From: Owenia fusiformis
Taxonomy: Eukaryota > Annelida > Polychaeta > Sabellida > Oweniidae
NCBI GenBank assembly: GCA_903813345.2
Contig: CAIIXF020000011.1
Location: 5,666,571 to 5,730,570 of the forward strand
Direction of reading: 5' to 3'
Length of the DNA stretch: 64,000 nucleotides
Shown: in pieces, positions 24,333-59,018 of the stretch
How the letters are laid out: each line of letters starts with the position of its first letter
Position numbering within the stretch: position 1 is the stretch's first letter
Made by a program: the position numbers and the translations under genes
The notes under the pieces: generated by a model
What the model was told of the DNA's origin: nothing
What the model saw: only the letters and a program-made list of their open reading frames with translations
Databases searched by the model: none

Positions 24333-25763
24333 TTAAATTATAAGATGCCATAAAACATTTTTACAATGTTCACATTTAAAAGGTATTTCTCCGATGTAAG
24401 TAGAAGATTTTTCACAAAATTCACATTTTAAAATACGTTCTCCTGTATGGATTCTCACGTGTTTCTTTAAAGTACTGGAATGTCCAAAACATTTTTTATA
24501 ATGTTCACTTTTAAAAGGTTTTTCTCCAGTGTGAGTTCTTATGTGTTCCTTTAATTTCCAATTTTCACCAAAACATTTCTCACAATGTTCACATTTGAAT
24601 GTTCTTTCTCCAGTGTGAGTTCGTAAGTGTTTTCTTAAACTACCAGATTCATTGTAACATTTTTCACAATATTCACATTTAAAAGATTTTTCTCCTGTAT
24701 GAGTTCCCATGTGCACCTTTAAACTATTAGATAATGAAGAGCATGCTTCACAATATTCACATTTAAAAGGTTTTTCTCCTGTATGAGTTCTCATGTGCAC
24801 CTTTAAACTATTAGATAATGAAAAGCATGCTTCACAATATTCACATTTAAAAGGTTTTTCTCCTGTGTGAGTTCTCATGTGCACCTTTAAACTATTAGAT
24901 AATGAAAAACATGCTTCACAATATTCACATTTAAAAGGTTTTTCTCCTGTATGATTTCTCATGTGCACCTTTAAACTATTAGATAATGAAGAGCATGCTT
25001 CACAATGTTTACATTTAAAAGGTTTTTCTCCTGTATGAGTTCTCATGTGCACCTTTAAACTATTAGATAATGAAGAGCATGCTTCACAATATTCACATTT
25101 AAAAGGTTTTTCTCCTGTGTGAGTTCTCATGTGCACCTTTAAACTATTAGATAATGAAAAACATGCTTCACAATATTCACATTTAAAAGGTTTTTCTCCT
25201 GTATGAGTTCTCATGTGCACCTTTAAACTATTAGATAATGAAAAGCATGCTTCACAATATTCACATTTAAAAGGTTTTTCTCCTGTGTGAGTTCTCATGT
25301 GCACCTTTAAACTATTAGATAATGAAAAGCATGCTTCACAATATTCACATTTAAAAGGTTTTTCTCCTGTATGAGTTCTCATGTGCACCTTTAAACTATT
25401 AGATAATGAAAAGCATGCTTCACAATATTCACATTTAAAAGGTTTTTCTCCTGTATGAGTTCTCATGTGCACCTTTAAACTATTAGATAATGAAGAGCAT
25501 GCTTCACAATATTCACATTTAAAAGGTTTTTCTCCTGTATGAATTCTCATGTGCACCTTTAAACTATTAGATAATGAAGAGCATGCTTCACAATGTTTAC
25601 ATTTAAAAGGTCTTTCTCCTGTGTGAGTTATTACGTGTCCCTTTAAATCACAAGATGAACCAAAACATTTTTCACAATATTCACATTGAAAACGTCTCTC
25701 CCCATTGTGAGTTCTAACATGTTTCTTTAAATTACTAAATGAACTGAAACATGTAAGAGGTCC
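24333..25763 (-). pseudogene. 3' part of the C2H2 zinc-finger gene: near-identical finger array, frame-separated
   Basis: The minus-strand frame from 25763 to 24333 encodes one partial finger (FSSFSNLKKHVRTH), FQCEYCEKCFGSSCDLKGH, then eleven near-identical fingers of the type KCEYCEACFSLSNSLKVH joined by TGEKPF linkers, two ordinary fingers and two degenerate ones (SEHYKK has lost both cysteines; the last breaks up). Five or six of the eleven have Ser in place of the conserved Phe (EACSSLSN), which may weaken folding. The frame equals that of the 5' gene (25914-27599), but a short segment in another frame (25727-25951) separates them, so this part is probably not translated unless it has its own start. 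At the DNA level it is an 84-bp tandem array. Confidence 0.7.
24730..25640. repeat. 84-bp tandem repeat (eleven zinc-finger units)
   Basis: Each 84-bp unit encodes one finger plus linker. Units differ by only a few bases (GAAAAGC, GAAAAAC or GAAGAGC at the Phe/Ser site), which points to recent amplification or gene conversion. Confidence 0.9.
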
Positions 25764-25951
25764 TCACTTTTGTGAGTTTTCGTGTGTATCTTTAGATTAC
25801 TAGATCTACTAAAACATTTTTCACAATGTTCACATTTAAAAGGTCTTTCTCCTGTGTGAGTTATTACGTGTCCCTTTAAATCACAAGATGAACCAAAACA
25901 TTTTTCACAATATTCACATTGAAAACGTCTCTCCCCATTGTGAGTTCTCAC
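25727..25951 (-). pseudogene. Zinc-finger segment in a shifted frame between the two halves
   Basis: This frame reads TRTHNGERRFQCEYCEKCF-type text, one finger (GSSCDLKGHVITH), a second (SRSSNLKIHTKTH) and then loses register at HKSEDLL. Its DNA is a tandem duplicate of the adjoining segments: 25860-25935 repeats 25617-25692. One length change near 25955 shifts into this frame and another near 25765 shifts back, so the array was once continuous. It marks the gene as recently broken or shortened. Confidence 0.7.
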
Positions 25952-27599
25952 GTGTAAGAGGTCCTTCTCTTTTGTGAGTTTTCGTGTGTATCTTTAGATT
26001 ACTAGATTTACTAAAACATTTTTCACAATGTTCACATTTAAAAGGTCTTTTTCCAATGTGAGTTCTAATGTGTATCTTTAGACTACTAGATCTACTAAAA
26101 CATTTTTCACAATGTTCGCATTTAAAAGGTTTTTCTCCAGTGTGAGTCATCATGTGATTCTTTAAATAACGAAGTTGACCATAACACTTTTCACATTGTT
26201 CACATTTAAAAGGTCTTTCTCCTGTGTGAGTTCTCATATGTGTCTTTAATTCACTAGAGGTATAACAACATTTTTCACAATGTTCGCATTTAAAAGGTTT
26301 TTTTCCAGTGTGAGTCATCATGTGATTCTTTAAATAACGAAGTTGACCAAAACACTTTTCACAATGTTCACATTTAAAAGGTTTTTCTCCTGTGTGAGTT
26401 CTCATGTGTATATTTAAACTACCCGATTCAATGAAACTTTTTCCACAGTGTTCACATGTAAAAGGTTTTTCTCCCGTGTGAGTTCTTATGTGTCTCCTTA
26501 ATTTACCAGATTCACCAAAACATTTTTCGCAATGTTCACATTTAAAAGGTCTCTCTCCTGTATGAGTTCGGACATGACTCTTTAAACTGCTAGATGTACT
26601 AAAATATTTTTCACAATGTTCACATTTAAAAGGTCTTTCTCCTGTGTGAGTTCTAATGTTTTCCTTTAATCTATGATGTTCTCTAAAACATTTTTCACAG
26701 TTTTCACACTTAAAAGGTTTTTCTCCAGTGTGAGTTCTCACGTGTATCTTTAAACTACTAGATGTACGAAAACATTTTTCACACTTTTCACATTTAAAAG
26801 GTCTTTCCCCCGTGTGAGTTCTTATGTGTTCCTTTAATTTACGATGTTCTCTAAAACATTTTTCACAGTTTTCACACTTAAAAGGTTTTTCTCCAGTGTG
26901 AGTTCTCACGTGTATCTTTAAACTACTAGATGTACGAAAACATTTTTCACACTTTTCACATTTAAAAAGTCTTTCCCCTGTGTGAGTTCTTATGTGTTTG
27001 TTTAAATCATAGGACCTAGAAAAGCATTCCTCACAATGTTGACATTTGAATGATTTTTCTTTTGTTATCACATTATTGTCACTTTGGACATATGACTGAT
27101 CAGTATTCCCAGTGAATTCAAAATTTCCAAATTCATTCTTAGCTTGATCAAAATCTTCTTGTTTAATAAGTGACTTTGATGCTTTCATATCATTGTCAGT
27201 TTCTATAGATGATTGTTCAGAATTAGTTGCAAATACAGAATTTCCGAATTGATCGTCAACTTCACCAAAAATTTCTTTTTTGACATTTGAGTGATTCACC
27301 ATAAATACGCTTTCTTTAGTGGCGCTGCACTCAAACTTACTTGAGGAACTTTGTTTAGATATGTGGTCATGGTCCAGTTTAAAATTGGCAAAACCTGATT
27401 GATCATGGCATACATGTTCTTGAGTTGCTTCTTCTTTTATTTCAACTGGCTCTTGCTTGATCATTTTTACATCTAGAGTTGACATGTTCGCCCCAAAATG
27501 CCCAGCTCTTGGTTGATCATAGGATACATGTTCTTGTGTTGTTTCTACTTTTATTTCAACTGGCTCTTGCTTGATCATTTGTACATCTAGAGTTGACAT
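25914..27599 (-). CDS. C2H2 zinc-finger protein, 13 fingers, with SUMO-site-rich N-terminus
   Basis: 561 residues. The N-terminal 190 residues lack a known domain but contain an internal duplication (MSTLDVQMIKQEPVEIKVE and MSTLDVKMIKQEPVEIKEE) and several psi-K-x-E sumoylation-type sites (IKQE three times, IKVE, IKEE, VKKE). Then 13 C2H2 fingers with TGE(K/R)(P)F linkers follow from about residue 190 (CQHCEECFSRSYDLNKH) to CEHCEKCFSKSSNLKIH. Finger 5 has Asn for the first zinc His (RLKENIRTH). The frame closes after GPLTRENSQWGETFSM where a length change breaks the array. The start is the first ATG after a probable 5'UTR acceptor at 27709 (TATGTATTTTCAG). Expected role: sequence-specific nuclear DNA binding with SUMO-dependent regulation (inference). 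Confidence 0.8.
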   Translation of the reverse strand: MSTLDVQMIKQEPVEIKVETTQEHVSYDQPRAGHFGANMSTLDVKMIKQEPVEIKEEATQEHVCHDQSGFANFKLDHDHISKQSSSSKFECSATKESVFMVNHSNVKKEIFGEVDDQFGNSVFATNSEQSSIETDNDMKASKSLIKQEDFDQAKNEFGNFEFTGNTDQSYVQSDNNVITKEKSFKCQHCEECFSRSYDLNKHIRTHTGERLFKCEKCEKCFRTSSSLKIHVRTHTGEKPFKCENCEKCFREHRKLKEHIRTHTGERPFKCEKCEKCFRTSSSLKIHVRTHTGEKPFKCENCEKCFREHHRLKENIRTHTGERPFKCEHCEKYFSTSSSLKSHVRTHTGERPFKCEHCEKCFGESGKLRRHIRTHTGEKPFTCEHCGKSFIESGSLNIHMRTHTGEKPFKCEHCEKCFGQLRYLKNHMMTHTGKKPFKCEHCEKCCYTSSELKTHMRTHTGERPFKCEQCEKCYGQLRYLKNHMMTHTGEKPFKCEHCEKCFSRSSSLKIHIRTHIGKRPFKCEHCEKCFSKSSNLKIHTKTHKREGPLTRENSQWGETFSM

Positions 27600-27759
27600 A
27601 TTGACCCCATACTAATCTCCTTCCTCTTCTTGTTTTACGAATTTCATTTTGTTACGCCATCTATGTACTTGTTGTTTATTTACTTTGCTGTCACAGGAAC
27701 CAGACGCATCTGAAAATACATAAAATATTGTCTAATAAGAACACAGGATAGTCATTCTA

Positions 27760-28359: not shown

Positions 28360-29230
28360 GTAAAATCTTAAAAGTTTGGAACTACTTTGAAAAAATAAGC
28401 AATTAAAGGACCATATTATAATTGAAACACCTATACCTGTCTGTATGTTTTAGTTTGTTTTGTAGTATAGCTATATATTTTGATGCTTCTCTGCCATGTT
28501 ATTTTCGAAAAAATTAACATGGCTGAAACTCCCTTAATTACAAAAGGCCACAGCTTTGCTGCACATTATACATAACGATCTGAAGTATACAAAAGTTATA
28601 CAAAACATTTAAAATTTTACTGTAGTCCTACATGTAGTATGTATCCAACAGACTAGAAGCCTTGACAGACAAGATTTTAGGACTAAACAGTTCAAAACAG
28701 AAACATGCCTGAGAAGTTCAAATGAATCCCTCAAACGGTTTGGCTGGAAACCTGTAGACAAGATAATTCGGGCCGCCCAGCCACCCGGCAAACTGATTAC
28801 AATATAGCACCTTATAGTCAAAACAGAAATGTTTGGGAGTACTTTGAATTTAAAATATAAGCAATCAAATGACCATATTGAAACAGTATATGTAAAAATA
28901 GAAACATCTATATTTATCCTAACTTTTGTATATTTCAGATAGTAATGTATAATGTGCAGCAAAGCTGTGGCCTTTTGTAATTGAGGGAGTTTCAGCCATG
29001 TTAATTTTTCCGAAAATAACATGGCAGAGAAGTATCAAATATAAGAGGACACTGGTATGATCATATGATAGCTAAATTACAAAACAAACTAAAATATACA
29101 AAAGTTAGGATAAATATAAATGTTTCTATTTTTACATAAACTGTTTCAATATGGTCATTTGATTGCTTATTTTTTAAATTCAAAGTACTCCCAAACATTT
29201 CTGTTTTGACTCTACACTGTAGACTACAGT
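28360..29230. repeat. Inverted copies of a dispersed repeat (target of the pogo insertion)
   Basis: Segments around 28500-28625 and 28830-28945 are repeated in inverse orientation at 28940-29040 and 29085-29220 (words ACAAAAGGCCACAGCTTTGC, AAATATACAAAAGTTAGGAT). The same family continues at 35522-35655, the far side of the pogo element. Confidence 0.7.
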
Positions 29231-30606
29231 AAAATTTTAAATGTTTGTGACTAGTCTAATCTACTTTGAATTTTACATTACTAGAGTCAATACGTCTATT
29301 TCCGAACACCCCCATCAAAAAATGTATTTACCTTGACTGTCTTGCGATTCTCTCGTATAATTTTATATCTGTAATGCGTAGTTTATGTTTTAAACGCATT
29401 TTTAGAAAAAAAATTGGATAAACCATCGGAAAAATTTAGGCGATACCATTTTAAGTGTAAGTTATTTCAGGGGGGTAAACACGAACAGGTGTTTTTTGTG
29501 GGGTAATTCCGAACACTTACAAGGGGGTAATTCCGAACACTTACATCATCTTAGCATTGATATGTTTATGTTTTCCTTCGAGGTAGATTGATGGCATATA
29601 TCACTTTAGTTACTTTCTTCTACCAGCCATTTTGGATCCTATCACCCCTGGATATCAGAAGCTCCCAAGTTTAAATGATTTTAAGTGACATCTATTTAAT
29701 GTTTGAACTATTATTCTTTTCTAAATCTAGTATTATTTGTACAGTTACTGGCTGAAATAAATGGATCACACAGACATATTAGATTCAAATAAAATTTATT
29801 AAGCCATTGCTTCTGTATTATCTGGCATGGAAAAACTGCATTTAAATGTCATTTAGCTCATTAATATCACATATGGGTACCCTACTATTAACTTTATACT
29901 CAACTTAATGAAACATTTACCATTGATCTAACAGCATGATTGTGATGACTTTGTATTCTATTGAACTTGATTTTGATTCATCTTACTTTGGTAACTGTAT
30001 AGTATGTAATACTTATAGTGTGAGCTTCTTTTGCAGGTGAGGTACCGGTAATGTAAGCTGTACTCCCAAGGTATAGGTACATAGACCTATAGTTATCAGT
30101 ATTAGACAATGGAAGAACAAGATTGGTAGATGTAGTCCAACATACTTTATACCAAGAAAACAAATTATTCCACATGATGCTTAATAACCTGATAATAAGA
30201 GCAAATGTGACTTTATATTCATTATACTGTCAGTCATAGCATACTGTATATCACCTATCTTGTCATGCCTTAATTCAACCATTTTACCTAACATACAGTG
30301 TATCTTATATAATAAGCATATATGCAGTACAGACATGGACGTTGAAGTCTATGTTTGTATTGTTTATGCATCAAGGATATCTTTACCTGTTTACCCAAAT
30401 TTCATCTGTTCATTGATCATTATTATTTCAACTTGATGTGATCATTTCATTAGCTTGATATCTTTCATATCCATCATATCATATCATATATTACACTGCC
30501 ACATAGACATCTTAAATTATTGATTGAACACTTTTTTCACGTCAAGTCATATTTCATCATTACTGTCATAGATTTTTTACCATAATACTATAACTAGTAT
30601 CATTAA

Positions 30607-33600
30607 TTATGCACACTTATAGCATACAAATTTGTCAAATTTTATTCTGCCCCATCTTGGGATGTTAGAGCCTGCATATCGTGCACATGAGACATGGTAC
30701 CAGGTAAGGCAAATGTTACATTCGACCATCCTGTCAGCCTCTTTCCCATTACCCCTAGCATCCTCATTTTCTTCACAAATATCACATGGCTCATCATATT
30801 CTTCATCATCATCATCATCTTCTTCGCCATCATCTTCATCACTTTGTTCTTCATACTCCTTGCTTAGCTCTACTTTCTTCTTCTTTTGCTGCTTAATTTC
30901 TTCATTCTCTAACTTTAGTTTTCTCTTTAGTTCTCTTTCCTTCCTTCTTCTTTCTTTGGCTTCTTCCTTCTGTCTTCTTTCTTCATCTTTCCTCTGTTTC
31001 TCTTGTATTATCTCTGGACTTGTCAGGATTCTTGATGAATTAATGCGTGGTCTACGGGGTCTAGATGGAGTACTTTGTTGCGTTGCTGGGAGACAAAATT
31101 CACTTTCCACAGCACGTTCCTGCAATTTCAAAAACAATATTTATGGAACATATTAATCTGATAAACACATTTTTATAGTTGTCTTCAACAAGGGTAGACC
31201 TTGTATTATATTGATCTTACTTAGTATGATATTGCAAAATTGAAAAGATTCACCATTTGGGAAAAATAACATAAAATACAAGAGCAAAAAAAAGAACTTT
31301 CTATTTTGGTACACATAAATATTTTCACATTCAATACCATTTCCATGGCCAGCTGACAGAAATTTTGTAACTTTTATTAATATGTTGAATAAATAATTTT
31401 ATTAAAAATACTTAGAAAGAAAGGAACAGATAGGAAGCTCTGATTTCTTTATCTTACCATAAAAATACTATCTAGTACATCCATAACAAAGGTAAATACC
31501 ATTGACCATAGTGTCAACATAAGTCCATGTTATTTGCTTAAGTATTTCGATTTAAAAGTTTTACCACATCTGTGCACTTGGCCAATGATGGGAAACTCTC
31601 TGGGACATCTGGCTCAGCACCCACTGGTCTGCCTAATGCATTTCCACCCTCTACTAAATTCTGTTCTGGTTCCTATATAATTATATAGAATATACATTAC
31701 CATGAGGAGCACAAAATAAATAAAGGAGGTTCAAGGACAAAGAATAGTTTAGAGCAATTCACTAACTTACTCATTTCATGCTTACAATTCTAGCTTTGTA
31801 TTATGAACATCCTATAGGTTAGTGATTTTTATATTGTATGTGTCACAAACCCTAATGTTCCCAAATGTTTGAAGGTTATATTCAGTTCCTCTGTTAGCTG
31901 TACTGTATTTATTGATTTCATTTTCATTTAAATTATTCAGATTATTAAAACTGGATGCAAATAAGGTACTCACTTGGTGTATTTCCATATCTAAAGTTGT
32001 TAATGCTTGGTTGGGTTCAACAGCCTCATTTACTTTAGGAATCTAAAAGAACATTTAAGATTCATTTAAGAGTTGGTTGACTAATTGTTCATGAATACAG
32101 TAGTATTGGGTAAAGAAAACATTTATTCTACTTTTAAAAATTCTAAATTGAAAAGGAAAATTAATGAAAAGAGAAGTTTACATGTCATAGACCTACATGT
32201 AAAACAATCATTTTTGTAGCCTTATATTCACTTACAGTCACCGAAAGTCCAATGTCTTCCAACTGTTTCTTCAATTGCTCTATATCGTTCATGCCTTCTG
32301 GGACTTCCATGATGAATGCTCCTTCACTGTATGAGAATGCGGGAATCGGGCTTATTACTGGCGATGAGGAGGTTGAAGGGAGTGGGGTAGATGGGTGCTT
32401 GAATGGGTCTGCGGGTTGATATGCATGTAATGGTATAATTTCAGGGTTTAGTGGATATATTCCAGTTGCCCTGAAACCACTTCGAATGTTGTCTGGCGTG
32501 ACTGCATTTTGGACTGCCTCTTTGAACAGTTTGGGCCAGGTCCTGGTAGTAACCTGGTGATTCGGGTTCGCAACCATAAATTGCGAGCATGCTTTATTGT
32601 ATGCTCTGGAGAGTGGGCCAAACACGCTCTTATCCAAGGGTTGTAACCAGTGAGTGGTGTGGGGTGGCAAAGCTAAGATATGAATGTCTTCCTCGACTGC
32701 TATCTCAAGCAGTTCGAGAACCTCATGTGATGAATGGCTGTCCAGTATTAGTAACTGTGGCCTGGCCTCCCCACAGTTCTTTAGAAACACATTCACAAAC
32801 CAATCTTCTCCAAGGACATCTGTCATCCAAGCCTTATGTTGGTAGGTAAAGTATGTACCTTCAGGGGCCTCATCTGCAAAGATGATTTAAAAACTCAGTG
32901 GCTAGTGGTCACACTTGTATTGCAAGTCAATGACTGTGTTTACAAGTGTATGTGTAGATGTGACTATCTGACTATAGTTTACAGTGAAACATAGTACAGT
33001 GAAAGCAATTCATTATTTCATTTTCATTATTAAGTAAAGTTGGTTAGATACAGCCTGCTTATAACTTATCTCAAACTGATGTAAAGTGTATTTGGACAAA
33101 TAAATTAGTTTTAACCCTATATTAAACATTTAAACAGGCCCGTAGCCAGGGGGGGGGGGGTCTTTCATAATCATGCAGATTTTCAAGATTTTGAGCACTG
33201 TTCAAGCCAAATTGTCAAATTTCACCCCCTAAATTTTTTTTCAAAAAGTGAACCTCCCTCATCGGCAAATCTTCGCTACAGGCCTGTTAAACATGATTAA
33301 TCATATAGCATATTTACGGGTATTCCAGCTCGACAGTACACCTCGAGTCTTGCCTTGGACAATCACTGTCCAGGGCATGGCATCCCCTGCTGCATTCACT
33401 GCCCCTAGAATGCTCGATGAGCGACGATTGTTGGACACTCGCCCAGGAACTTTTTTCATGCCTACAATGATAGATGTAGCCTATAGAATTTCATTATTGA
33501 GATACTTAAAAGTACCAATAGACAATCAGTGTTACCCTAGAATGCAAAAATATAGTGTTCAGTGTTACATAGGTTTTATACTTTTAGTTTTAATATTTCA

Positions 33601-34827
33601 GTATTAAAGAGTTATTTTCAGAGGTACGCATCTTATCATTGGCTGATTGAGAGATTTCAAAATAACTTTGAATAGCCTAGAAATTGATTGTCTTTAACTT
33701 GTATGCACAAACATCTGCTCCCTGGTGTGAACTATAAAATATTAATTCATTGAATATTAATTCATTGAATATTAATTTGTCAATTATATTGACACTGCAA
33801 GTATACAGTATTTTATAATAGGTTTACCTTTCACACAGACCACTCCTGTCGGGGAGTGTTCGAATGAGATGTTGCTCTCATCCATATTCCATATCTCTCG
33901 AGGGCCAAATTGATGGACATCCAAAAGTTGTTGTAGCTGCGAGAAATACTTCTCAACAACTTTCCTGTCCATCAATTTGCTCCTCGAGGTAGATTGAGCT
34001 GAGGGTTTCCTTATTGTGAGTTCCGGCCATCTTTTTTTCAGTCCTTCGTACCATTCCTAGAATAATAATTCATGCAAAATTTCAAAATTGCTTTTTAAAC
34101 TGCATCTTACTTTACTTGTTATTTAAACTTGTTCATTTGGACTTATAATTTAGAAGGCTTCATTGAGAAAGATTTTTGTATCATTACTTGAATTGTTCTT
34201 AGACAGTTTCAATTCAATATCTCATTTTTGATTGCTAACATTAAAGATAAGCATGTCAACGCCCACTGGAATTGAACCAGTTCCATCTACTTTCGTAGAT
34301 TATGCTACCATTACACTAGAGAGTTGGAGACATCATACATCAAAATGTAACGCAATCAAAATTGTAAAAGACAACTATTTGAAATATACTGTAAAGTCCA
34401 AACCAACAAGCAATTATCAAGTAAAGTAAGACAACAAACAAGTCAAACAACTAAGACTTACTCTTCCGGCCACCATGTTGCCCCTGTTATCTTTAAGAAA
34501 AGGGGTGGAAAGTTTCAGGGCTTTGGCAACACGCCCTGCCTTGTGCTGCAGCTGAAAGCGTGAAATCCCAAATCCGGACTTTGCCGCCTTGATCGTTTTC
34601 GAGATTATTTCTTCTTCCACATCACGTGGAAGAGCTGGCTGTCTGCCTCGTCTAGCCCCAATCTCAATTTTGCCACTTTTGTGGTCATGCAATGTAGTAA
34701 GGGGAATGCCAGTCTGGCGGGCAGTTGATCTAACAGACTGGCCATTCCCAATCAATTCCAGGGCCCTTCGCATGTCATCATCGGACCAACCTGGCTTCTT
34801 ATTCCTAGCATTATATTTACGTGGCAT
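30607..34827 (-). CDS. Pogo/Tigger-like transposase with C-terminal PHD finger, seven exons, 688 aa
   Basis: Exons (minus): 34827-34462, 34056-33828, 33461-33318, 32873-32236, 32042-31974, 31672-31565, 31119-30607. All junctions are GT-AG, phases agree, and the sum is 2067 nt with no internal stop. Residues 1-55 form a psq-type helix-turn-helix (MRRALELIGNGQSVRSTARQ), followed by a CENP-B-like second DNA-binding region up to about 150. The DDE_1 catalytic core has Asp about 181 (IWNMDES), Asp about 291 (LLILDSHSSH) and Asp about 327 (THWLQPLDKSVFGPL), a DD35D spacing, then FRATGIYPLNPE. After a Pro/Ser linker come a charged coiled coil (RKDEERRQKEEAKERRRKER), an acidic run and a C4HC3 PHD finger (CDIC, VECNIC, WYHVSC, FVCYKC). 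A PHD finger could target histone H3 tails; this is inference. Six introns are many for a transposase, so host co-option is possible, but intact ends argue for a transposon. Confidence 0.9.
33135..33287. mobile_element. MITE of the CGTAGCCAG family, copy 3, inside a transposase intron
   Basis: AGGCCCGTAGCCAGG at the left faces a partly matching GCTACAGGCCT at the right. It lies between exons 4 and 3 of the transposase gene without touching the splice sites, so it arrived after the pogo element was built. Confidence 0.55.
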
Positions 34828-35521
34828 TCTGAAAAAAATAACAATTCAAAGTGAATGTAACATCATATGTAACACCATTGCTACAACCAGGGGTCAGCAG
34901 AACAATCACTGGGCATTATTGAGATTATTATTTCATATAACCTTAACACTAATACTAAGGTAGAAGATAGAGAACTGGTAGAAAAAATAAAATCAGTTGA
35001 AAGAATATGAGTATAAAATTCATGATAAATCGTATCAAGTCCAGAGAGAACAAAACACAATCAAATTTCAACGGTTCCTGAAAAAGCTGGGGGTAAATGC
35101 GAACACCTCATTTATTAACGAGTTTCACATGAAAAATGTATATAGGGTTGTATAACAACATGAAAGATATCTAAGAACTCATATTGAAAAGGTTTATTCA
35201 GTTCTTAGACGCAAAACTGTACAAATTATACTCACATTCCTTGAAATTTTAGCACAATCAAAAAATTTTTGAGCGATATTTTTTTGCTGCCGATAGAGGG
35301 CGAAAGAACAAATCTCGCCAAATCTCTAGAGATTAAGCATGGCAATTTTGAAAAAATCATGATTCAAGAATTTTCACAGACATTGGAAAAATAAGGTATG
35401 TAATATCATGAAACAGTTAAGCAAATAATATTATAGTGTTCGGAATTACCCCCAGCTTATGAACAATGGCCGCCATTGTTCGGAATTACCCTCTATATCG
35501 GATTTAGACGTATTGACTCTA

Positions 35522-35655
35522 TCTGAAATATACAAAAGTTAGGATAAATATAAATGTTACTATTTTTACATATACTGTTTCAATTTGGTCATTTGATTGC
35601 TTATTTTTTAAATTCAAAGTAGTTCCTAACATTTAAAATTTTACTGTAGGCCTAG
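35522..35655. repeat. Right-flank half of the dispersed repeat split by the pogo element
   Basis: TCTGAAATATACAAAAGTTA and the following 120 bp match 29090-29220 directly and 28830-28925 inversely. Confidence 0.75.
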
Positions 35656-45704: not shown

Positions 45705-47600
45705 ATTTTTAATGTGAATTACTTTAGTTAATTTGTTTGAATGAAGTTGCATGGTCTCCAAAAGTTTCATGCGAATGTGTTCAGTGCTATTAACAATATT
45801 TGTTTATAACAAACGAACACCAGTGTTTAACAACTGTACAATCCAATCCATTGTTTAAAAAGCTGTTCATAGATTATTGTGTCCATAGTATACGTTTATC
45901 TTTCTATCGTTGATGTAATTTTGCCCATACATTTTGTACTTTAATTAAAGCCATATAGGCTTAGAACAAATTAAATATTACTTACTTAGCTAAAATATCA
46001 ACTCCCCAGGCAACATGGTATTCAACTACAAAGGTTTAAATAATCTGCATTGCTTAGAACCTTCACTGGACTGCTATTTTCACGGAAGAAAAATGCTTTG
46101 ATTTCTAAAATTTAGTTTACATTCTCCATTTATGAGTCATGTGATCTATATTCAGAATGAGGCTTTGACCTCTCTATGTAAACAAATTGAGGGATCGTTC
46201 ACACTTTTGATGATGTCATCACGAGGTCAGTTCACAAGCCTGTATTGTAAAATTGAGATATATTGATATAAGCTTCAAAATGAGAAATCTCCAGTATTTC
46301 CGAATACCACACGTCGTTTTGATGTGTTAATCGATGTGAGCATATTCAATACATCTTTCTTTAAATCTTGATCTGAAATAAGAAGCTATGATACTTGTTA
46401 ACACTCCAGAAATTAACATAATATTATTCACCGGGTTAGAAACCGCCGGCCATTGATGTAATTTGTCTTTGATTTGACCAATCAGCTCCGATGTGTTCTC
46501 AATACAGATTGAATCCTGCCTTCCCCTCTTACTTTAATTAATGGTATTCATTTGCTATATATATATCAGGTGTCCCAAAAAAGTATTTTCTCAACATTGT
46601 CAATTAATAGATCTCGCGAATTCATTGAAATAGCCAAAGGGTATCATTATTAAATGAAATGAATATGTAAGAAATCGGTTCCATATTATGTGAGTATTGA
46701 CAGAATGAAAAATGCAAGTTTAAAAATCCAATATCAGAGCAACTCAATGAGACCTTCGTAGCGTTTGTGCCAGGGATCAGATAAGAGCACATGCCTTAAT
46801 CAGTTCTACAATGCAAAACTAGAACAACACCAAATCCCTTGAAACAAAACATACGAAATATTGAATGGACCTTTGTATTTCTTGCTCTACTGAAATAAGG
46901 TCCAACGGACCGTTATCCCTCGGAAATATGGTCCGACTGGGAAATACAGTCCCACCTGCTTGAGTGTGTGGTCCCAAATGGACCAAAATCTGATTATTGA
47001 TCCCGAGCCTAAATTCCTAGGGATATTGGTCCTACATTTCATTCCATGGGAATATTGTTAAGCACTATGGATAATCATTTTATCCAAAGGATTATTTGTC
47101 TGAAAACAAAATCTTAAACGGGTCGCGAAAAGAACATTAGAGGTTTAAGTTGCAATGTTTTTCACAACCTAAAAGTGAACGGAAAACGTTTAAGCGATGC
47201 ATTTGTATGGGCTCTTGACATACCATTTTATTACATTTTTGTAAAGAAATAGTTTGAAATAGATTAAAGAATTGCAAATATTTATAAAAAAAGTAGTATG
47301 AATCATTTGAATTGAATCGTTTCTTTGATACTTATGTTCTTTAATGCAACATAACTTTACTCCTATTATAACTTGGTTTGAATTGAGGTCGCCATAATAC
47401 ATTCACATTGAAGTTCTAACTTAAAATAGGTGTCAGACATCATTTGTTAGTCAATTTTAACTCCGAATTATAATCGAGTATACTACAGTGATACAAATTC
47501 AAAACTCCTGATGCAGAACTCGAATACAATTTTTCATTTTCTATGCGAGGAGGCCGACGCTACAGTTACAGTATGCAAAGCTTTTTAAAACTTCAATCCA
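45705..47600. other. No gene seen; one MITE-like end
   Basis: A CAGGTGTCCCAAAAAAG sequence at 46568 resembles a Tc1/mariner-type MITE end, but I found no partner. Tracts near 46910-47040 repeat GGTCC-type words. Upstream control sequence of the ANKH-like gene should lie at the right-hand side. Confidence 0.35.
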
Positions 47601-47633
47601 CATTTTAATTTTAGTACGGAAGACTTCGATAAT

Positions 47634-49013
47634 ATGACGTTTATTGCTTATGATGTGGCTGATATTGACTTGGGAAAATGTTTGTTTATATTTCAAATAT
47701 TTCTACCTACTGCCATTGCAAATATGGAACCAGCAATGGCTAGAGTTGTCGACAGTTTGAGCCAAACATATACCCAGGATATAAATGAATCCTTGATTGT
47801 TGTATCATTGACGCTCAGCATTGCAAGCATTCTTCGAGCATACTTATCACTAAGCCAGGCAACGCAAGTTTTTATTTTACTGGTCAACTCAAAGATGGAC
47901 CTAAAGAAAGGTCTGATCTTTGTGATTTTCAGTAGCACCATCACAGCAGGGATTTTTCTTGTGATTGGACTTACACCAGTGGGATACGCCATCCAAGTGC
48001 TGTTTCGTATCACCGATCGACAACTTAAAGAAGTTCAATTTGGCATAGCATCCTTCTGTTTGATATCAGGAGTCCTCAATAGTGGGCATGCAATCCATGG
48101 ATTATTATTAAAGAATAAACACACCTATTTTTGTCTCCTCTCTGAGTTTTTAGGGTTCATAACAAAATTAGGAGCTGTGTTCTCGCTCATGGCTACACCA
48201 TTATTAACTAGAAGACCAATCTTGATACCTATAATATCAGCATATGTGTCAGCATTGGTTTATCTTCTCTTGAGCTTTATAGGATATAGATTATATTTGA
48301 TCAATAATTTACCTGCTGAAAGTACAAATACACTGACATATCGTCAAATGATTGAAGTGACACTACCCCTAGGGCTGCAAGAATTGATCGAAAGATGCGA
48401 ATCATTTATCCTAAGCTTTATAGTTGCCCAACTAACGCCATCTGAATCTATGCGAAGTATGGCACTGGCGAACATTCATGTCCTCCATGCATCATTTTAC
48501 TCAGTGCGAAGGACGTTAGTCAGCATTTCAACAATGGTACCGGCATACCTTGCATCAGGAATGAATTCATCATTGCATTTCGACCATGAACTAGTTATCT
48601 GTACCGCAATCATTGCATTCGTTTCATTTTTGATTTCTTTTTCAATGTGCTGGATTACTCCCGTTACGAGGGTTATATTTTTATACGTTTTTCACATTTC
48701 TGAAGAAAATTTCATTGCAATATACTATCCCTTTAAGTTGTACACATTCTGGCCGATTATACAAATATTTTCTTTGTTTTCCCTTGGAATTTTACTACAT
48801 AAAAAAGACACCAAGATGACATTAGTGAGTTCTGGTTGCAAAGTCATCACATTGGGTTGTCTACCATTTGCTTTAGATCTTCTTGGATTCGATGTTTTAC
48901 TGTCTTCAGTTGTGGCTTTGTTTACTGCTCAGTCATTTATCGCAGGCATACTTTTCCCATACCTTTATTTGAAGTATTTAAGAAAATCTCAATCGCATCA
49001 AAAACAAGTATGA
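47634..49013 (+). CDS. Divergent ANKH-like multi-pass membrane transporter, intronless
   Basis: 459 residues from an ATG at 47634 to a TGA at 49011-49013, with about ten hydrophobic segments. Three blocks align by eye with vertebrate ANKH (492 aa): LVNSKMDLKKG (residues 83-93; human VNSKRDRTKA), HGLLLKNKHTYF (155-166; human AGILLKHKYSF) and RRPILIPIISAYVSALV (193-209; human REPLLIPILSLYMGALV), in the right order and spacing. The segment LPLGLQELIERCESFI (about 244) matches the fifth-block position. ANKH exports ATP, citrate and pyrophosphate-related substrates across the plasma membrane (family knowledge); the substrate here is unknown. Vertebrate ANKH has many introns, whereas this frame is unbroken, so it is a retrocopy-derived paralog or lost its introns. 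A possible 5'UTR acceptor (TTAATTTTAG) is 20 bp before the ATG. Identity to ANKH looks low, and some family residues may have changed. Confidence 0.75.
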   Translation: MTFIAYDVADIDLGKCLFIFQIFLPTAIANMEPAMARVVDSLSQTYTQDINESLIVVSLTLSIASILRAYLSLSQATQVFILLVNSKMDLKKGLIFVIFSSTITAGIFLVIGLTPVGYAIQVLFRITDRQLKEVQFGIASFCLISGVLNSGHAIHGLLLKNKHTYFCLLSEFLGFITKLGAVFSLMATPLLTRRPILIPIISAYVSALVYLLLSFIGYRLYLINNLPAESTNTLTYRQMIEVTLPLGLQELIERCESFILSFIVAQLTPSESMRSMALANIHVLHASFYSVRRTLVSISTMVPAYLASGMNSSLHFDHELVICTAIIAFVSFLISFSMCWITPVTRVIFLYVFHISEENFIAIYYPFKLYTFWPIIQIFSLFSLGILLHKKDTKMTLVSSGCKVITLGCLPFALDLLGFDVLLSSVVALFTAQSFIAGILFPYLYLKYLRKSQSHQKQV

Positions 49014-52067: not shown

Positions 52068-53869
52068 ATGCATCACTTTACAGAGGTGTTTGGGATCATA
52101 TTTCTTTTTGGTATACAAATAGGTAATGCTTAATAGAATAATTTAGACAAAAACAACAACGTTTTATCAAGTAATTATTGAATTAGGTCGGCATTATATA
52201 CCCTAAACGCTGTTACAGGCAAACCGACTGAAACGTTTCTGTAAAAGCTGTTGAAAATAACTTTACGTCTGACAATTCTAAAGATACTGGAAAAAGACAT
52301 ATGTGTAACTTGCTTCATATAGAGGAATAGAGGAATTTCTATCTAGCTTTGAGTCTCACTTATTCTTGTTTTTTTCGTTGGATTTGTATATTAAACCTCC
52401 CATGGCTTATTTTTCCTTTTTAATAGCCTATTTGAATTCAGTATAGACTTTGCCGAATTGATCTAACTGTGTACGAACGGTTCAGACGTAGTTGAAATGT
52501 TAACGATCTTAATTCTAACTTCACGTTTTGGCGGCCATCCAATAAGACCGAGTGACAACATAATTAAAACGAGATGGACGTTTCGAGAACTAGATTTTCT
52601 CGTCTTGAATCAAGAAGAATTGGCCTCCAGGGTTTCAACTTTTCCATAGAACTGAATAGACCTTTACCATCAACACTGAGAAGATTGCTTGACGGTTTGA
52701 ACTGCGTTGAAACCCTGGTAGCCAATTATCCTTGGTCTTGAATATAATCTGTCTGTCCATGCGCTTTTGGTATACTTTTTCACTGAAATAATATTTAATA
52801 ATGTTTAACACTTGTTTCTTTTCACTGTATATCTGCAGTCAGTGGCCATGTTAATTCAGCGACATGCAACAGTAATGAGCAGATGAAGTGTACAATGTCA
52901 TGTGATTGTGAAGGTAAGTGGTAGTTCCTCTCTATTAGCATAAGATGGAATAACTGAAAAAACACTCTATTATTATAATTTGCCGGTACTTGATAAGGAT
53001 CTACTCCAATTTTGTTGATGCCCAATTTTGTCTGTAAGGGACCGGAACAAGGTCAAGTCAAAACGAAATTTGTATTTCAGTCACATCACATTTGATACCG
53101 AATTCCGGGCGATGTTTTTTGGCAAAAATAGATCTGCAAGTCGGGAAATATTACTGGCGTTTTTGGGGTCAGGTTCAACTAAACTTCTGGTTTACTCTTT
53201 GATTAATATTTTGCAGCTAAATATTTGACCGATTGTTGCGTTGATCCTTCATTCACTGGTGTAATAAACATCAAAACACAAGACGGAAAAATATTCAACG
53301 CATACTGTGTCCAGGGTTGGACTTACGCATTTAAACGTTTTGACGGCTCGGAGGATTTCTACCGCACTTGGGTCGAGTATCAACATGGCTTTGGTAAAAG
53401 AGATGGTGAACATTTCATTGGATTGGATAACCTTGCCAGCTTTGTGAAGGGGCGTACGTGCAAAGTGCGGTTTGATTTGGAAGCATGGCCTCCCGTATCC
53501 CCAGCTAAACGATTTGCCGAATATTCAATATTCAATGTCGCAGACGAGACCCAAAAGTATCGTCTTACCATCGATGGATACAGTGGAACAGCTGGTGATG
53601 CAATGAAAAGAAAACACAATGGACGAATGTTTTCCACGCATGACCGAGATAATGATGAGGCCGATTTTAATTGTGCCACTTCCTACCATGGTGCTTGGTG
53701 GTACGGACACTGCCACGATGCAAACCTTTTTGGATTGTACGTGAATGGGCCAATTTGCCCGGCACATGCAAAGTGTCTTGTTTGGGAAAATTGGCCATCT
53801 GTTATCGGAACACCAACAAATAACTACTACTCGTTCAAAAATGCATCTATGAAAATACATTGCTGTTAG
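52068..53869 (+). CDS. Secreted fibrinogen-related protein (FReD), gene A, three exons, 260 aa
   Basis: Exons are 52068-52122, 52839-52913 and 53217-53869; both introns are GT-AG and phase 1, and the sum is 783 nt. Exon 1 encodes a signal peptide (MHHFTEVFGIIFLFGIQI). Exon 2 encodes a short Cys-rich linker (SATCNSNEQMKCTMSCDCEG). Exon 3 is a fibrinogen C-terminal-type domain: GWTYAFKRFDGSEDFYRTWV, YQHGFG, EHFIGLDNL, GYSGTAGDAM, FSTHDRDNDEADFNC (the usual calcium loop, DRDND at 186-190) and HGAWWYGHCHDANLFGLY. The usual NLNG is NLFG here. Extra cysteines (DCCVD at the start, IHCC at the end) may form added disulphides. Ficolin and related FReD proteins bind acetylated sugars or microbial surfaces; that role here is inference. 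Paralog B lies 8.9 kb downstream in the same orientation. Confidence 0.85.
52605..52742. mobile_element. 138-bp fold-back element in intron 1 of FReD gene A
   Basis: TTGAATCAAGAAGAATTGGC (52605) and CCTCCAGGGTTTCAAC are inverted at GTTGAAACCCTGGTAGCCAA to about 52742. The terminal GAATTGGC and CCAGGGT words resemble those of the family at 2753-3677. Confidence 0.65.
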
Positions 53870-54732: not shown

Positions 54733-54920
54733 TACAATTTATAACATATTTTTACTTTACGAACTTATAAGTTAATAAATACACAGTTTGTGGATTGAAT
54801 TCGATCATTTACCAAATTCCATAGTGGACAGGACTCGGAAGGAGGATATAAATCTCTTCACCATCTAAAGCGATATCTATTAAACCCTGTGAGTATCTGT
54901 TCCTTTATACATTTTGTAAC

Positions 54921-55493
54921 ATGGATGGATTATCAGCAATGCTAATTGGACATTCCTTTGTTAGGCGCTTTAAGAATTATGTTCGCACAACTGAAGACAA
55001 ACGCGTTAAATGGAATCTTGGGCTAGAACGCATTCATATTAGATATGACGGTTTGGGCGGTAGAAAAGTAGGGACAATATTGAATGAAACATTGGAAAAT
55101 AAATTAAAAAATCCGCCAAACATAGTCATCTTACAAATTGGAGGAAATGATATCTCAAACGGAAAAAGACCCGAAACAGTTGCCTCCGATATAGAAAATC
55201 TAGTCATGAAATTACACCAAGAATATCACGTCGAATATATTTTAGTATCTGAACTTATACAAAGAAAATCAGCTCCTTTAAAATACAATGAAAACGTCAT
55301 GCTATGCAATCGTATTCTGACAGCATTATTAGAGCACATTCCATTCGCAAAGCTGTGGCACCACAGAGGTATTAGGAATAGCCAATTTAACCTCTACATT
55401 GAAGACGGTGTCCATTACAATGATCGCGGAAATTATAAACTCTATCAAAGCTACAAGCAAGCATGCATCTTCGGTGAAAGCCAACTTAATTAA
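54921..55493 (+). CDS. SGNH/GDSL-type hydrolase ORF of the Ngaro element
   Basis: 190 residues. The SGNH blocks are all visible: the nucleophile block IGHSFVRRF (residues 8-16), a Gly block (GLGGRKVG), the Asn block LQIGGNDIS (about 71-79) and the Asp-His pair EDGVHYN near 168. The length fits a minimal SGNH domain. Similar hydrolases are known in ORF1 proteins of some LINEs and, to my recollection, in some Ngaro elements; their role in retrotransposition is not settled. It is the first ORF after repeat A1 and precedes the hairpin array. Confidence 0.8.
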   Translation: MDGLSAMLIGHSFVRRFKNYVRTTEDKRVKWNLGLERIHIRYDGLGGRKVGTILNETLENKLKNPPNIVILQIGGNDISNGKRPETVASDIENLVMKLHQEYHVEYILVSELIQRKSAPLKYNENVMLCNRILTALLEHIPFAKLWHHRGIRNSQFNLYIEDGVHYNDRGNYKLYQSYKQACIFGESQLN

Positions 55494-55802
55494 TATACAA
55501 AACATAAGCATTGCTGGTAAGACCCATTATTGTATTTTTCTACTCGTAGCATGGGGTAGTGGTATAAAGATTTAATTGAAAAACAATTATTGTATTAGAA
55601 AGATATCTTTATATATATTATCACGCAAACAGGGCAAAGGTAATGCAGCACTCAATATATATTTCTCGAGCTGCCGAAAGCTGGGTAACCATTCCTTGTC
55701 TTAATACAGTAGCCATTTGAATTATATCATTGTTTGTGCATCGCTCAGAATCAGCTTCTGAGCATTTAATTGTGAGATTTAATCACAAAGCTCACTTGTC
55801 CC

Positions 55803-56346
55803 TTGGATTGAAATCATATCCAAACTACGGACAACAACTATTACCTTTTTTAACGGTCTCAAGGATTAAAATAAGTATCCTTAATTAAAGACTTTAGTGC
55901 CCTCTTAAATAGTATTACGTTCTATTTGTTTGAGGGTTGAAATCATTATCCTCATACTTTATCTCACGGATTGAAATTAGTATCTGTCGAGACAAAAATG
56001 GCGTTTACATGTTTGTTCGAGGATTGAAATTATTATCCTCAAACTTTATCTCACAGATTGAAATTAGTATCTGTCGAGACAAAATGGCGTTTATTTGTTT
56101 GTTCGAGGATTGAAATTATTATCCTCATACTACATCTCACTGATTGAAATTAGTATCTGTTGAGACAAAAAAATGGCATTTAAATTGTTTGTTCGAGGAT
56201 TGAAATTATTATCCTCATACTTCATCTCACGAATTGAAATTCGTATCTGTTGAGACAAAAAATGGCATTTAAATCGTTTGATTCGAGGGTTGAAATTATT
56301 ATCCTCATACTTCATCTCACGGATTGAAATTATTATCCGTTGAGAC
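55803..56346 (+). repeat. Tandem hairpin array between the hydrolase and gag-like ORFs
   Basis: A unit of about 90 bp is repeated, each with two potential stem-loops around a TGAAATTA-type loop. Stems differ but remain paired: TTGGAT/ATCCAA (55803-55823), AAGGAT/ATCCTT (55861-55882), GAGGAT/ATCCTC (56019-56040, 56105-56126, 56195-56216), ACAGAT/ATCTGT (56053-56074), ACGAAT/ATTCGT (56229-56244) and ACGGAT/ATCCGT (56319-56340). GAGGGT/ATCCTC and ACGGAT/ATCTGT use G-U pairs. TCTC before and GAGA after several stems can extend them. One copy (56139-56160) has a mismatch. Confidence 0.75.
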
Positions 56347-56458
56347 AAAATACGGTTTTTAATTTGTTTGTCTTTGTTTGTCTTGCTTTATTAAAATTGT
56401 AAAATATCGCTGTTACTTTCTTTATTTTCCCACCGCGTCTCTGTTTTATTTGCAGATC

Positions 56459-57442
56459 ATGCCTAAGAGACAACTAAGACCCAGGGGATCGCCTTCAAGG
56501 GCACCCGGAAGAAAACCTTCAACAAAGAAGCAGAAGTTGAATGAGGAGTTGGTGGTGGAAATCACGAAACGGGTGGTAGAAAGTCTATCCCAGCAACCTG
56601 CAACTTCAACAAATACACGAGACAACTCTACTAGCGAGGACTCTGGGGATTCAGACGGCGAGGTCTCATTCCCAAAATTAGGTACGGAAACAAACCTCAA
56701 TGAGCCCGAAGCTCCTTCTAAGGCATTTTCTTTCCAAATACCTATCGACATGCATGTGCCAACAGCTATTAAGCAAAAAATCTGGAATAACGAGTACGTA
56801 GAGTTCGGGTCACTTCTCCCTAAACATTCACGAGTCAAAGACTCAGAATTCGATTTGAAACAATCCAAATCAGGTAATCTTAAAATAACCAAGGCCCAAG
56901 GTAATTTTAAATTAGTTTCCATTGAAGAATGGATTTCCGCTTTCCATATTTTCACCACCATACATTGCACAAAATATGGCACGGATGCAATTCCGTTAAT
57001 GCACTATGGCCAGAATGTAAGGAAATTAGCGGAAAACCATTTGGACTGGAACTACTACGACGAAAATTTTCGACGGGCAAGGGCCAATAATATATCATTA
57101 CCCTGGGACCAGCCCCATCCCACGTTATTCATTTTTACTTCCCTCGAGGGAAAGCAACAGCAAAATAACAAGCACAATAACTCTCAATACCCAAGCAATA
57201 GCAAGTCAAAACCAAACATCCCCAAAGGATTCTGTTACAAATTCCAATTAGGCCAAACTTGCTTCAAAAAATCTGAATGCAAATTCCACCACTATTGCTT
57301 TAAGTGTAATAGTCCCTCTGCAAACCATCCAGGCTTGAAGTGTAATAAGAATTTTCGACCCCAACGCTCGTCCTCCAATTTTCAAACTCCAAGTAACAAG
57401 GGTCAAAACTCAAATCACAATGCCAACACCAATAATCATTAA
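56459..57442 (+). CDS. Gag-like ORF of the Ngaro element
   Basis: 328 residues from the ATG at 56459. The basic N-terminus (MPKRQLRPRGSPSRAPGRK) is followed by a Ser/Thr-rich acidic stretch, a middle region with PTAIKQKIWNNEYVEFGSLL (a motif I associate with the gag-like proteins of DIRS/Ngaro elements) and a C-terminal Cys/His cluster (GFCYKFQLGQTCFKKSECKF, HHYCFKC) like a CCCH or zinc-knuckle RNA-binding domain, then an Asn-rich tail. Presumed role: packaging of element RNA. It overlaps the next ORF by 23 bases. Confidence 0.75.
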   Translation: MPKRQLRPRGSPSRAPGRKPSTKKQKLNEELVVEITKRVVESLSQQPATSTNTRDNSTSEDSGDSDGEVSFPKLGTETNLNEPEAPSKAFSFQIPIDMHVPTAIKQKIWNNEYVEFGSLLPKHSRVKDSEFDLKQSKSGNLKITKAQGNFKLVSIEEWISAFHIFTTIHCTKYGTDAIPLMHYGQNVRKLAENHLDWNYYDENFRRARANNISLPWDQPHPTLFIFTSLEGKQQQNNKHNNSQYPSNSKSKPNIPKGFCYKFQLGQTCFKKSECKFHHYCFKCNSPSANHPGLKCNKNFRPQRSSSNFQTPSNKGQNSNHNANTNNH

Positions 57443-59018
57443 TGGATTATCATACTATATCAAGGGATACGACGCGTTTCTGTCTAGCTACCTTCTAAAT
57501 GGTTTCAGCAATGGTTTCAGTATTGGTTATTTTGGCGAAAGAGAATCGAGACGGTCAACTAATTTTAAGTCGGCCATAATCAATCACCACATTGTTAAGG
57601 AGAAAGTTAAATCTGAAATTCAAAAAAACAGGATTTCACCTCCCCAGTCCGATCCACCGTTTGATAAGTATTTTGTCACATCTCCATTGTCAGTAATTCC
57701 CAAAAAGACCCCCGGCGAATTTAGATTAATTCATGATCTTTCATATCCGAAAGGCTCTTCTATAAACGACGGAATTCCAGTTGAATTGCGATCTGTCAAT
57801 TACTCAAACGTATCTGAAGCAATCAAAATAATTTCGGAAATGGGTAGGGAATGTTTTTTAATAAAAATCGACATTCGTTCCGCATTCAGAATCATTCCTT
57901 TACATGAAGACGATTATCCATTACTAGGTTTTGAGTTCGAGGGTAATTTTTACTATCAAAAGGTTCTACCAGAAGGCTGCGCTAGTAGTTGCGCTATATT
58001 TGAAAAATTCAGTTCATGCGTGGAATGGATAATGAAAAAACAACTTGAAACACAAAATATCTTGCATTACTTAGACGATTTCCTAGTAGTATCAAAAACT
58101 TATGAAGAAGGTCGAGTGTACCTTCAAAAATTTCAGGCTATATGCAATGACATAGGCATTCCATTATCTATAGAAAAAACATCTGCCGAACCGGTAAATT
58201 GCCTCACTTTTCTGGGCATCGAATTAGACACTGCTTCAATGGAAGCCAGATTGCCATTAGAAAAACTTCATAAATGTTGTACTCTGATAGAGACAAATAT
58301 GCATAGAGATAAGCTTAAATTAAAGGAATTGCAAGAAATCATAGGCCTCCTTAATTTTGCATGCTCAGTAATTAGCCCTGGTAGAGCTTTCTTGAGGAGA
58401 ATGATAGATTTGACGAGGGGAATATCCAACAAACATTATCATATCCGTATGAACAACGAAGCAAAGCAAGATTTGAAAATGTGGAAACTATTTCTTAACC
58501 AATTCAATGGGAGGGCAATCATTAAGTCACCCGATTGGACCTCCTCCGACACTTTAAAACTATTCACAGATAGCTCAGGTTCGGGCTATGGCGCATTGTT
58601 TCAAAACAATTATTTCCACGGAGTTTGGAATTCTCACTGGAAAAAATTTCACATTACCATACTTGAACTTTATCCAATAGTTTTAGCAATAGACATGTGG
58701 GGAAACTCTTTCAAAAACAAAAATGTCTTGTTCTACACAGATAACGAGGCAGTCGCATATATCATCAATAAACAAACGTCAAAGGATGGGAATATAATGG
58801 CCCTCATCAGAAGATTGGTTCTGTCTTGTCTCTCATTTAATATATCATTCAGTGCAAAACATGTGGCAGGAACATTAAATACATCAGCAGATAGTTTATC
58901 CAGAGGTCAAGTTACAAAATTTAAACTATTAAACCACCATGTAATTAACTTACAGGGAATAAATGTACCAAACCTGCCACAAGTCGACAGCTGCAACAGA
59001 ATCTGTTGGGGATTCTAG
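57420..59018 (+). CDS. Reverse transcriptase-RNase H ORF of the Ngaro element
   Basis: 532 residues. RT motifs: FRLIHDLSYPKGSSIND (about 101), FLIKIDIRSAFRIIPL (the first catalytic Asp, about 150), LPEGCASSCAIFEKFS and LHYLDDFLVV (the YxDD box, about 217). The RNase H domain follows: LKLFTDSSGSGYGALF (first Asp), LELYPIVLAI (Glu) and VLFYTDNEAVAYIINKQ (Asp), then HVAGTLNTSADSLSR. This order and spacing fits DIRS/Ngaro RT-RH. There is no DDE integrase or protease, as expected for this order. It overlaps the recombinase ORF by 13 bases. Confidence 0.9.
   Translation: MPTPIIINGLSYYIKGYDAFLSSYLLNGFSNGFSIGYFGERESRRSTNFKSAIINHHIVKEKVKSEIQKNRISPPQSDPPFDKYFVTSPLSVIPKKTPGEFRLIHDLSYPKGSSINDGIPVELRSVNYSNVSEAIKIISEMGRECFLIKIDIRSAFRIIPLHEDDYPLLGFEFEGNFYYQKVLPEGCASSCAIFEKFSSCVEWIMKKQLETQNILHYLDDFLVVSKTYEEGRVYLQKFQAICNDIGIPLSIEKTSAEPVNCLTFLGIELDTASMEARLPLEKLHKCCTLIETNMHRDKLKLKELQEIIGLLNFACSVISPGRAFLRRMIDLTRGISNKHYHIRMNNEAKQDLKMWKLFLNQFNGRAIIKSPDWTSSDTLKLFTDSSGSGYGALFQNNYFHGVWNSHWKKFHITILELYPIVLAIDMWGNSFKNKNVLFYTDNEAVAYIINKQTSKDGNIMALIRRLVLSCLSFNISFSAKHVAGTLNTSADSLSRGQVTKFKLLNHHVINLQGINVPNLPQVDSCNRICWGF

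Follow-up and report, generated by a model that had tools for sequence, protein, structure and literature searches.

PHD fingers are known from long interspersed nuclear elements (LINEs), from Ginger and Rehavkus transposons and from the RAG recombinase, though their role in selfish DNA has been little tested. Ginger1-9_HM of Hydra has a cut-and-paste transposase with a PHD finger among its C-terminal domains, but this transposase is of the Gypsy-integrase type, carries Ulp1 and belongs to a superfamily other than pogo (PMC2836005). Rehavkus transposons, which also bear the finger in their transposase, are MULE-like and make 9-bp duplications (PMC6446971), and the CR1/L2 LINEs, in which a PHD finger was proposed as a targeting aid, are retrotransposons (PMC4120745). 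In the transposase-derived RAG1/RAG2 recombinase, which has a Transib-related core, an acidic hinge accompanies a PHD finger that binds histone H3 trimethylated at lysine 4 (H3K4me3); this finger lies on a separate subunit and is described as absent from ProtoRAG, and the yield of double-ended transposition product rose 22-fold with a long H3K4me3 peptide (PMC11844651, preprint). For pogo elements, the main text of a survey gives lengths of 1.2-5.2 kb, five types of helix-turn-helix (HTH) domain, a TA (or TAA/TAAA) target duplication and a catalytic spacing of 29-36 in Tigger, and does not mention PHD (PMC7386202). Here we describe a 64,000-nucleotide stretch of the annelid Owenia fusiformis (the window; G000:C11:5666571-5730570 of a genome of 498 Mb in 525 contigs), which contains a pogo-superfamily DNA transposon of the cut-and-paste type that looks complete and autonomous and whose predicted transposase ends in a PHD finger.

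The element occupies window positions 29284-35519 (6,236 bp), precisely the borders proposed in a preliminary description made from the letters of the sequence. Its 15-bp terminal inverted repeats (TIRs) are identical (15/15) and are flanked by TA on both sides, as that description had also stated; extended to 24 positions including the TA pair, the terminal inverted match is 92%. The DDE_1 domain, the spacing of the catalytic triad, the TIRs with TA and an N-terminal HTH of a listed type all place the element among pogo transposons. It shares with the surveyed elements the DDE_1 core, the DD35D arrangement, the TA duplication, TIRs shorter than 40 bp and a psq-type HTH (Fot/Fot-like), and differs from them in its seven predicted exons, in its C-terminal coil, acidic run and PHD finger, and in its 6.2-kb length, which exceeds a range that describes the survey and does not define the group (PMC7386202).

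The predicted transposase gene consists of seven minus-strand exons (Table 1) separated by six introns, all with GT-AG borders, and the exons join in matching phases into an open frame of 688 amino acids and a stop, as first described. In this protein, Pfam identified DDE_1 at E 1.2e-26 (93.8 bits, cut-off 22), and the triad of Asp181, Asp291 and Asp327, with 35 residues separating the last two, is an exact DD35D. Of the other two domains for which scans had been proposed, HTH_psq scored 18.9 bits on the whole protein and 22.1 bits on its first 163 residues (cut-off 20.4), and PHD (PF00628) scored 23.9 bits on the whole protein, 0.1 short of its cut-off of 24, and 32.3 bits on the isolated C-terminus, so that both pass on isolated segments and fall below on the complete protein. 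The finger has the C4HC3 zinc ligands and the conserved Trp before the His; it is preceded by an acidic run and, before that, by a basic coil-like stretch. The earlier list of domains therefore stands for the psq HTH, the DD35D core, the coil-like stretch, the acidic run and the C4HC3 finger. Its CENP-B-like region is not confirmed, CENP-B_N and HTH_Tnp_Tc5 being absent from Pfam listings, whose filters drop weak matches, for the window protein (E<=1) and for its relatives on contigs C8 and C10 (E<=0.5). Because the HTH is of the psq type and no CENP-B_N was listed, we keep the pogo half of the original pogo/Tigger label, which DDE_1, the triad and the TIRs with TA support, and drop Tigger. 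HTH_psq scored 37.1 bits in the C8 protein and 18.7 bits in the C10 protein. Residues 1-393 matched no PDB sequence at E<=1.

Several relatives elsewhere in the genome end in a similar finger. The C8 element has its own 13-bp TIRs (GAGTCCGTACGTC) with TA, at C8:2547412 and 2554218, and seven exons, their borders picked by likeness to the window gene model, can be modelled there, which agree with the window exons in position and phase, have GT-AG introns throughout and yield a protein of 695 amino acids that ends in a finger; this finger reaches just 12.9 bits for Pfam PHD and is identified by alignment. The C10 relative encodes 733 amino acids in three predicted exons (PHD 21.0 bits, below the cut-off), and a single frame of 514 codons runs from the DDE part, in which the second and third Asp lie, through the coil to the finger. 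At three more distant loci, a single frame contains DDE_1 and has a finger at its C-terminal end: C3:25.96 (PHD 30.1 bits, above the cut-off), C12:12.13 (17.2 bits, below it) and C4:28.31, where the finger is recognised by motif alone; on C12 and C4 the finger is shorter and does not fit a stricter spacing pattern. In total the genome holds 19 DDE_1 matches, 13 of which are covered by the finger tally and six left out. A finger is present in 6/9 of the loci that were translated and aligned, or in 6/13 when the motif-scanned loci are counted. The motif scan found no finger at C8:2.46 (similar to C8:0.93), C4:27.24, C4:30.08 and C4:30.14, which is weak evidence given limited flanks and some broken loci.

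All aligned fingers (6/6) keep seven zinc ligands and the Trp of the C..C..W.H..C motif, and at the eighth ligand position five have Cys and C8 has His. The order of coil, acidic run and PHD is common to the window, C8 and C10 proteins, in which Asp and Glu make up 18, 15 and 11 of the 24 residues before the finger, counts that were reached in 0, 0 and 6 of 2000 shuffles; for the window protein, this means that no 24-residue stretch sampled in the shuffles was as acidic. At the other three loci with a finger, which are more distant, no such run is present (3, 1 and 5 of 24). At E<=0.001, the genome contained no match to the window finger beyond the finger itself and those on C10 and C8. A search for relatives in viral_contigs and genome_contigs, which cover viruses and prokaryotes and are uninformative on distribution in animals, found none.

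A genome search with the element gave 475 candidates, of which 40 were scored, and all copy counts of this search refer to those 40. Among them, the window copy is the only full-length one. Three relics on C3 (0.7-1.2 kb) match the 5' region of the element, with exon 1 and the sequence upstream of it in 3/3 and intron 1 in 2/3. Against these relics, the ratio of nonsynonymous to synonymous substitution rates (dN/dS) of exon 1 is 0.17, 0.17 and 0.20 over 119, 99 and 78 codons, with stop and gapped codons excluded, and we therefore conclude that the coding sequence was under constraint while the lineages parted. The interior of exon 1 (72-85% identity, dS about 0.5-0.7) diverges more from the relics than intron 1 (34057-34461), which is 85-97% identical to two of them in 60-bp blocks. 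CpG decay was considered as a cause of this difference and accounts for part of it only; the intron may have a function, or subfamilies may have exchanged sequence by gene conversion.

Further, the left end of the element matches 36 places over about 259-417 bp at 71-77%. Sixteen of these loci were fetched, and 14/16 proved to be complete miniature inverted-repeat transposable elements (MITEs) of 636-653 bp with both ends, all flanked TA/TA. Their TIRs equal those of the element within two mismatches (exactly at both ends in 3/14), and their pairwise identity averages 91.8%, with 99.7% for the best pair, which suggests that they are recently moved, non-autonomous relatives of the element. By eye, no target-site motif beyond TA was obvious in the 14 MITE insertions. 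A degenerate 28-base pattern of the left end has 78 matches genome-wide including the window copy, and its reversed control has 0. The other 77 read CCAAAC where the window copy reads CCGAAC, a difference that weighs against direct mobilisation of the MITEs by the window copy, and another subfamily may therefore be their source. The search for further copies with the same TIRs and a PHD-bearing frame, as first proposed, yielded MITEs with near-identical TIRs and a C8 element with TIRs of its own and, among the 40 candidates scored, no second full-length copy.

Two repeats of GGGGTAATTCCGAACA lie inside each end of the element (Table 1); at up to two mismatches this sequence has five matches in the window, all within the element, against 0.02 expected, and the repeats are putative transposase-binding sites.

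The insertion site can be read from the flanks. To the right of the element, a high-copy repeat contributes one of its arms, which starts exactly at the TA and agrees with two fetched repeat copies over 129-130 bp at 99%. The joined flanks (122 nt) match 39 non-self places at 96-98% across the junction (40 scored of 1,115 candidates) and, over 34 nt with one mismatch, a nearby copy at window position 28920 (-). These uninterrupted matches extend just 7-13 nt to the left of the TA. Past about 12 nt the left flank no longer follows the repeat, so the evidence for the left side of the empty site is thin, and a rearrangement of the left flank is likely; the right side of the uninterrupted site is strong. 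The repeat, with 1,115 candidates genome-wide, has inverted arms of 137 nt that are 93% complementary and is seen at window positions 28813-29214, to the left of the element, and 35519-35648, where one arm forms its right flank. A MITE (L019) adjoins a copy of the repeat too.

From these data we are highly confident that the element is a pogo-superfamily transposon and that the finger is integral to its transposase. The window joining rests on predicted splice sites, which would leave room for a neighbouring host PHD gene wrongly joined to the transposase, the case named at the outset as the one that would overturn the reading. The uninterrupted DDE-PHD frame on C10, the fingers in the DDE frame on C3, C12 and C4, and the enclosure of DDE and finger within one TIR pair on C8 contradict it, and with the single C10 frame in particular we reject it as having a negligible probability. 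Recent capture of a host PHD finger is likewise not favoured, because the only other matches of the finger at E<=0.001, those on C10 and C8, lie in DDE loci. The finger had also been taken as a possible step toward host use, and a host gene domesticated from a pogo transposase would suit the single full-length copy and the intact frame. The locus nevertheless keeps identical TIRs, TA and the full catalytic triad, sits at the edge of a high-copy repeat and has a second TIR-bounded element of the same design on C8, while fingers recur in several divergent transposases; domestication was rejected on the TIRs, TA, triad and C8 element, and we consider it very improbable. Judged by sequence, the finger looks like an old working part of this transposase lineage, neither a recent capture nor a sign of domestication.

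The function of the finger is less firmly placed. Its best PDB sequence matches are PHF13 and PHF23 (3.4e-6 to 2e-5), and its Met and Trp align with PHF13, which the title of entry 3o7a names together with H3K4me3; we take these two residues to be cage residues. An AlphaFold2 (AF2) model has a mean predicted local distance difference test score (pLDDT) of 78.2 and a predicted template modelling score (pTM) of 0.64, and its structural matches are mostly PHD-containing chains with weak statistics. On this basis we put the chances that the finger reads histone H3 at about even, and a histone H3 reader is our best guess rather than a result. Chromatin-guided targeting, as first suggested, is plausible. 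The HTH would bind the TIRs and subterminal repeats, the DDD core would excise the element and insert it at TA, and the finger would recognise the tail of histone H3, probably in its K4-methylated or unmodified state, and thereby let integration favour, or be released at, certain chromatin. As a whole, an autonomous pogo transposon whose finger guides integration by chromatin is the explanation that we regard as probable, on balance.

PHD-like folds have several roles, and the finger could instead be a structural, dimerisation or protein-partner module without histone binding, as its weak structure matches, varying length and varying last ligand would allow; the motif Trp invariant in 6/6 and the rank of PHF13 and PHF23 as best PDB matches make this module rather doubtful. 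Somewhat less likely again is a built-in brake of the RAG2 kind, in which the acidic run and finger would occupy the transposase's own target-DNA site when no suitable histone tail is at hand, and H3K4me3 binding would free it for integration at open chromatin. The tail does recall the acidic hinge and finger of RAG2, which restrain transposition by blocking target DNA (PMC11844651, preprint), and its parts stand in the same order in the window, C8 and C10 proteins. The likeness to RAG2 is put forward as an analogy, and the three more distant finger-bearing loci do without the acidic run. Also, acidic runs are common in nuclear proteins. That the pogo lineage evolved such a histone-gated brake independently of RAG2, its acidic hinge and finger excluding target DNA until a methylated H3 tail pulls them off, is unlikely and a shade more speculative than the brake itself. 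If true, the element would be a natural single-protein model for a chromatin mark that licenses or forbids transposition, and the RAG2 solution would have arisen inside selfish elements.

Steering or gating by a histone reader becomes directly testable here, because finger and nuclease are predicted to share a polypeptide in an element whose ends are clean, whose frame is open and which has MITE relatives. PHD fingers in other transposons were already known; what is new are the related MITEs with near-identical TIRs and the acidic-run-PHD tail. A literature search, with most subscription journals and Repbase outside it, found no description of a pogo transposase with a PHD finger. Many predictions from animal genomes that go by the name 'MFS-type transporter clz9-like' are probably psq/DDE_1 proteins with a C-terminal finger; searching the literature for this name returned 0 papers. 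If so, this architecture is widespread in databases even though the literature found has no name for it, which lowers its novelty. Further, caution is due with annotations, since genes labelled as PHD or transcription-factor proteins may in fact encode transposases.

Table 1. Features of the element in window coordinates
Feature	Position	Strand	Basis or remark
Left TA target duplication	29282..29283	.	TA at both borders; empty sites elsewhere share ~12 nt on this side
Left 15-bp TIR, GAGTCAATACGTCTA	29284..29298	+	Past the 3' end of the transposase gene
Two subterminal repeats, GGGGTAATTCCGAACA	29500..29539 (29500-29515, 29524-29539)	+	Similar repeats in MITEs
PHD finger, residues 630-687, C4HC3	30613..30786	-	PF00628 on isolated domain; zinc-ligand positions
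Acidic run, residues 606-629, 18/24 D/E	30787..30858	-	Composition against shuffles
Exon 7: coil-like basic stretch, acidic run, PHD finger, stop	30607..31119	-	Predicted splice model, Pfam
Exon 6	31565..31672	-	Predicted; counterpart in C8 element
Exon 5	31974..32042	-	Predicted; counterpart in C8 element
Exon 4: DDE_1 core, Asp291 (32740-32742) and Asp327 (32632-32634)	32236..32873	-	Predicted, Pfam
Exon 3	33318..33461	-	Predicted; counterpart in C8 element
Exon 2, holds Asp181 (33880-33882)	33828..34056	-	Predicted splice model
tRNA-like sequence in intron 1	34257..34325	-, same sense as transposase	Rfam tRNA 32.8 bits, cut-off 29
Exon 1: start codon, psq-type HTH at residues 16-55	34462..34827	-	Predicted splice model, Pfam
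Two right-end subterminal repeats	35437..35492 (35437-35452, 35477-35492)	-	Like GGGGTAATTCCGAACA
Right 15-bp TIR	35505..35519	-	Identical to left TIR
Right TA target duplication	35520..35521	.	TA at both borders; repeat arm starts exactly here

The tRNA-like sequence in intron 1 was also reported by ARAGORN (34255-34326), with a short anticodon loop and no anticodon called. A 161-nt query around it matched only the element and two of the C3 relics (C3:1290111-1290267 and C3:884696-884851), at 96-97%.

Other mobile DNA and gene-like frames were noted in passing. At C5:16962001-16965500 (L064), a LINE-like frame has an N-terminal PHD followed, as read by eye, by an apparent endonuclease and reverse transcriptase, and many dispersed frames of more than 1,000 codons with PHD matches may belong to this family. 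Within the window, 54852-59917 (+) contains a GDSL lipase/hydrolase frame (54852-55490), reverse transcriptase and RNase H (57339-59015) and a phage-integrase-type match below the cut-off (58949-59914, +), which we take to suggest a DIRS/Ngaro-like retroelement. In addition, two long C2H2 zinc-finger frames, an ANKH-like frame and a Fibrinogen_C frame occur at 24336-27611 (-), 47589-49010 (+) and 53207-53866 (+).
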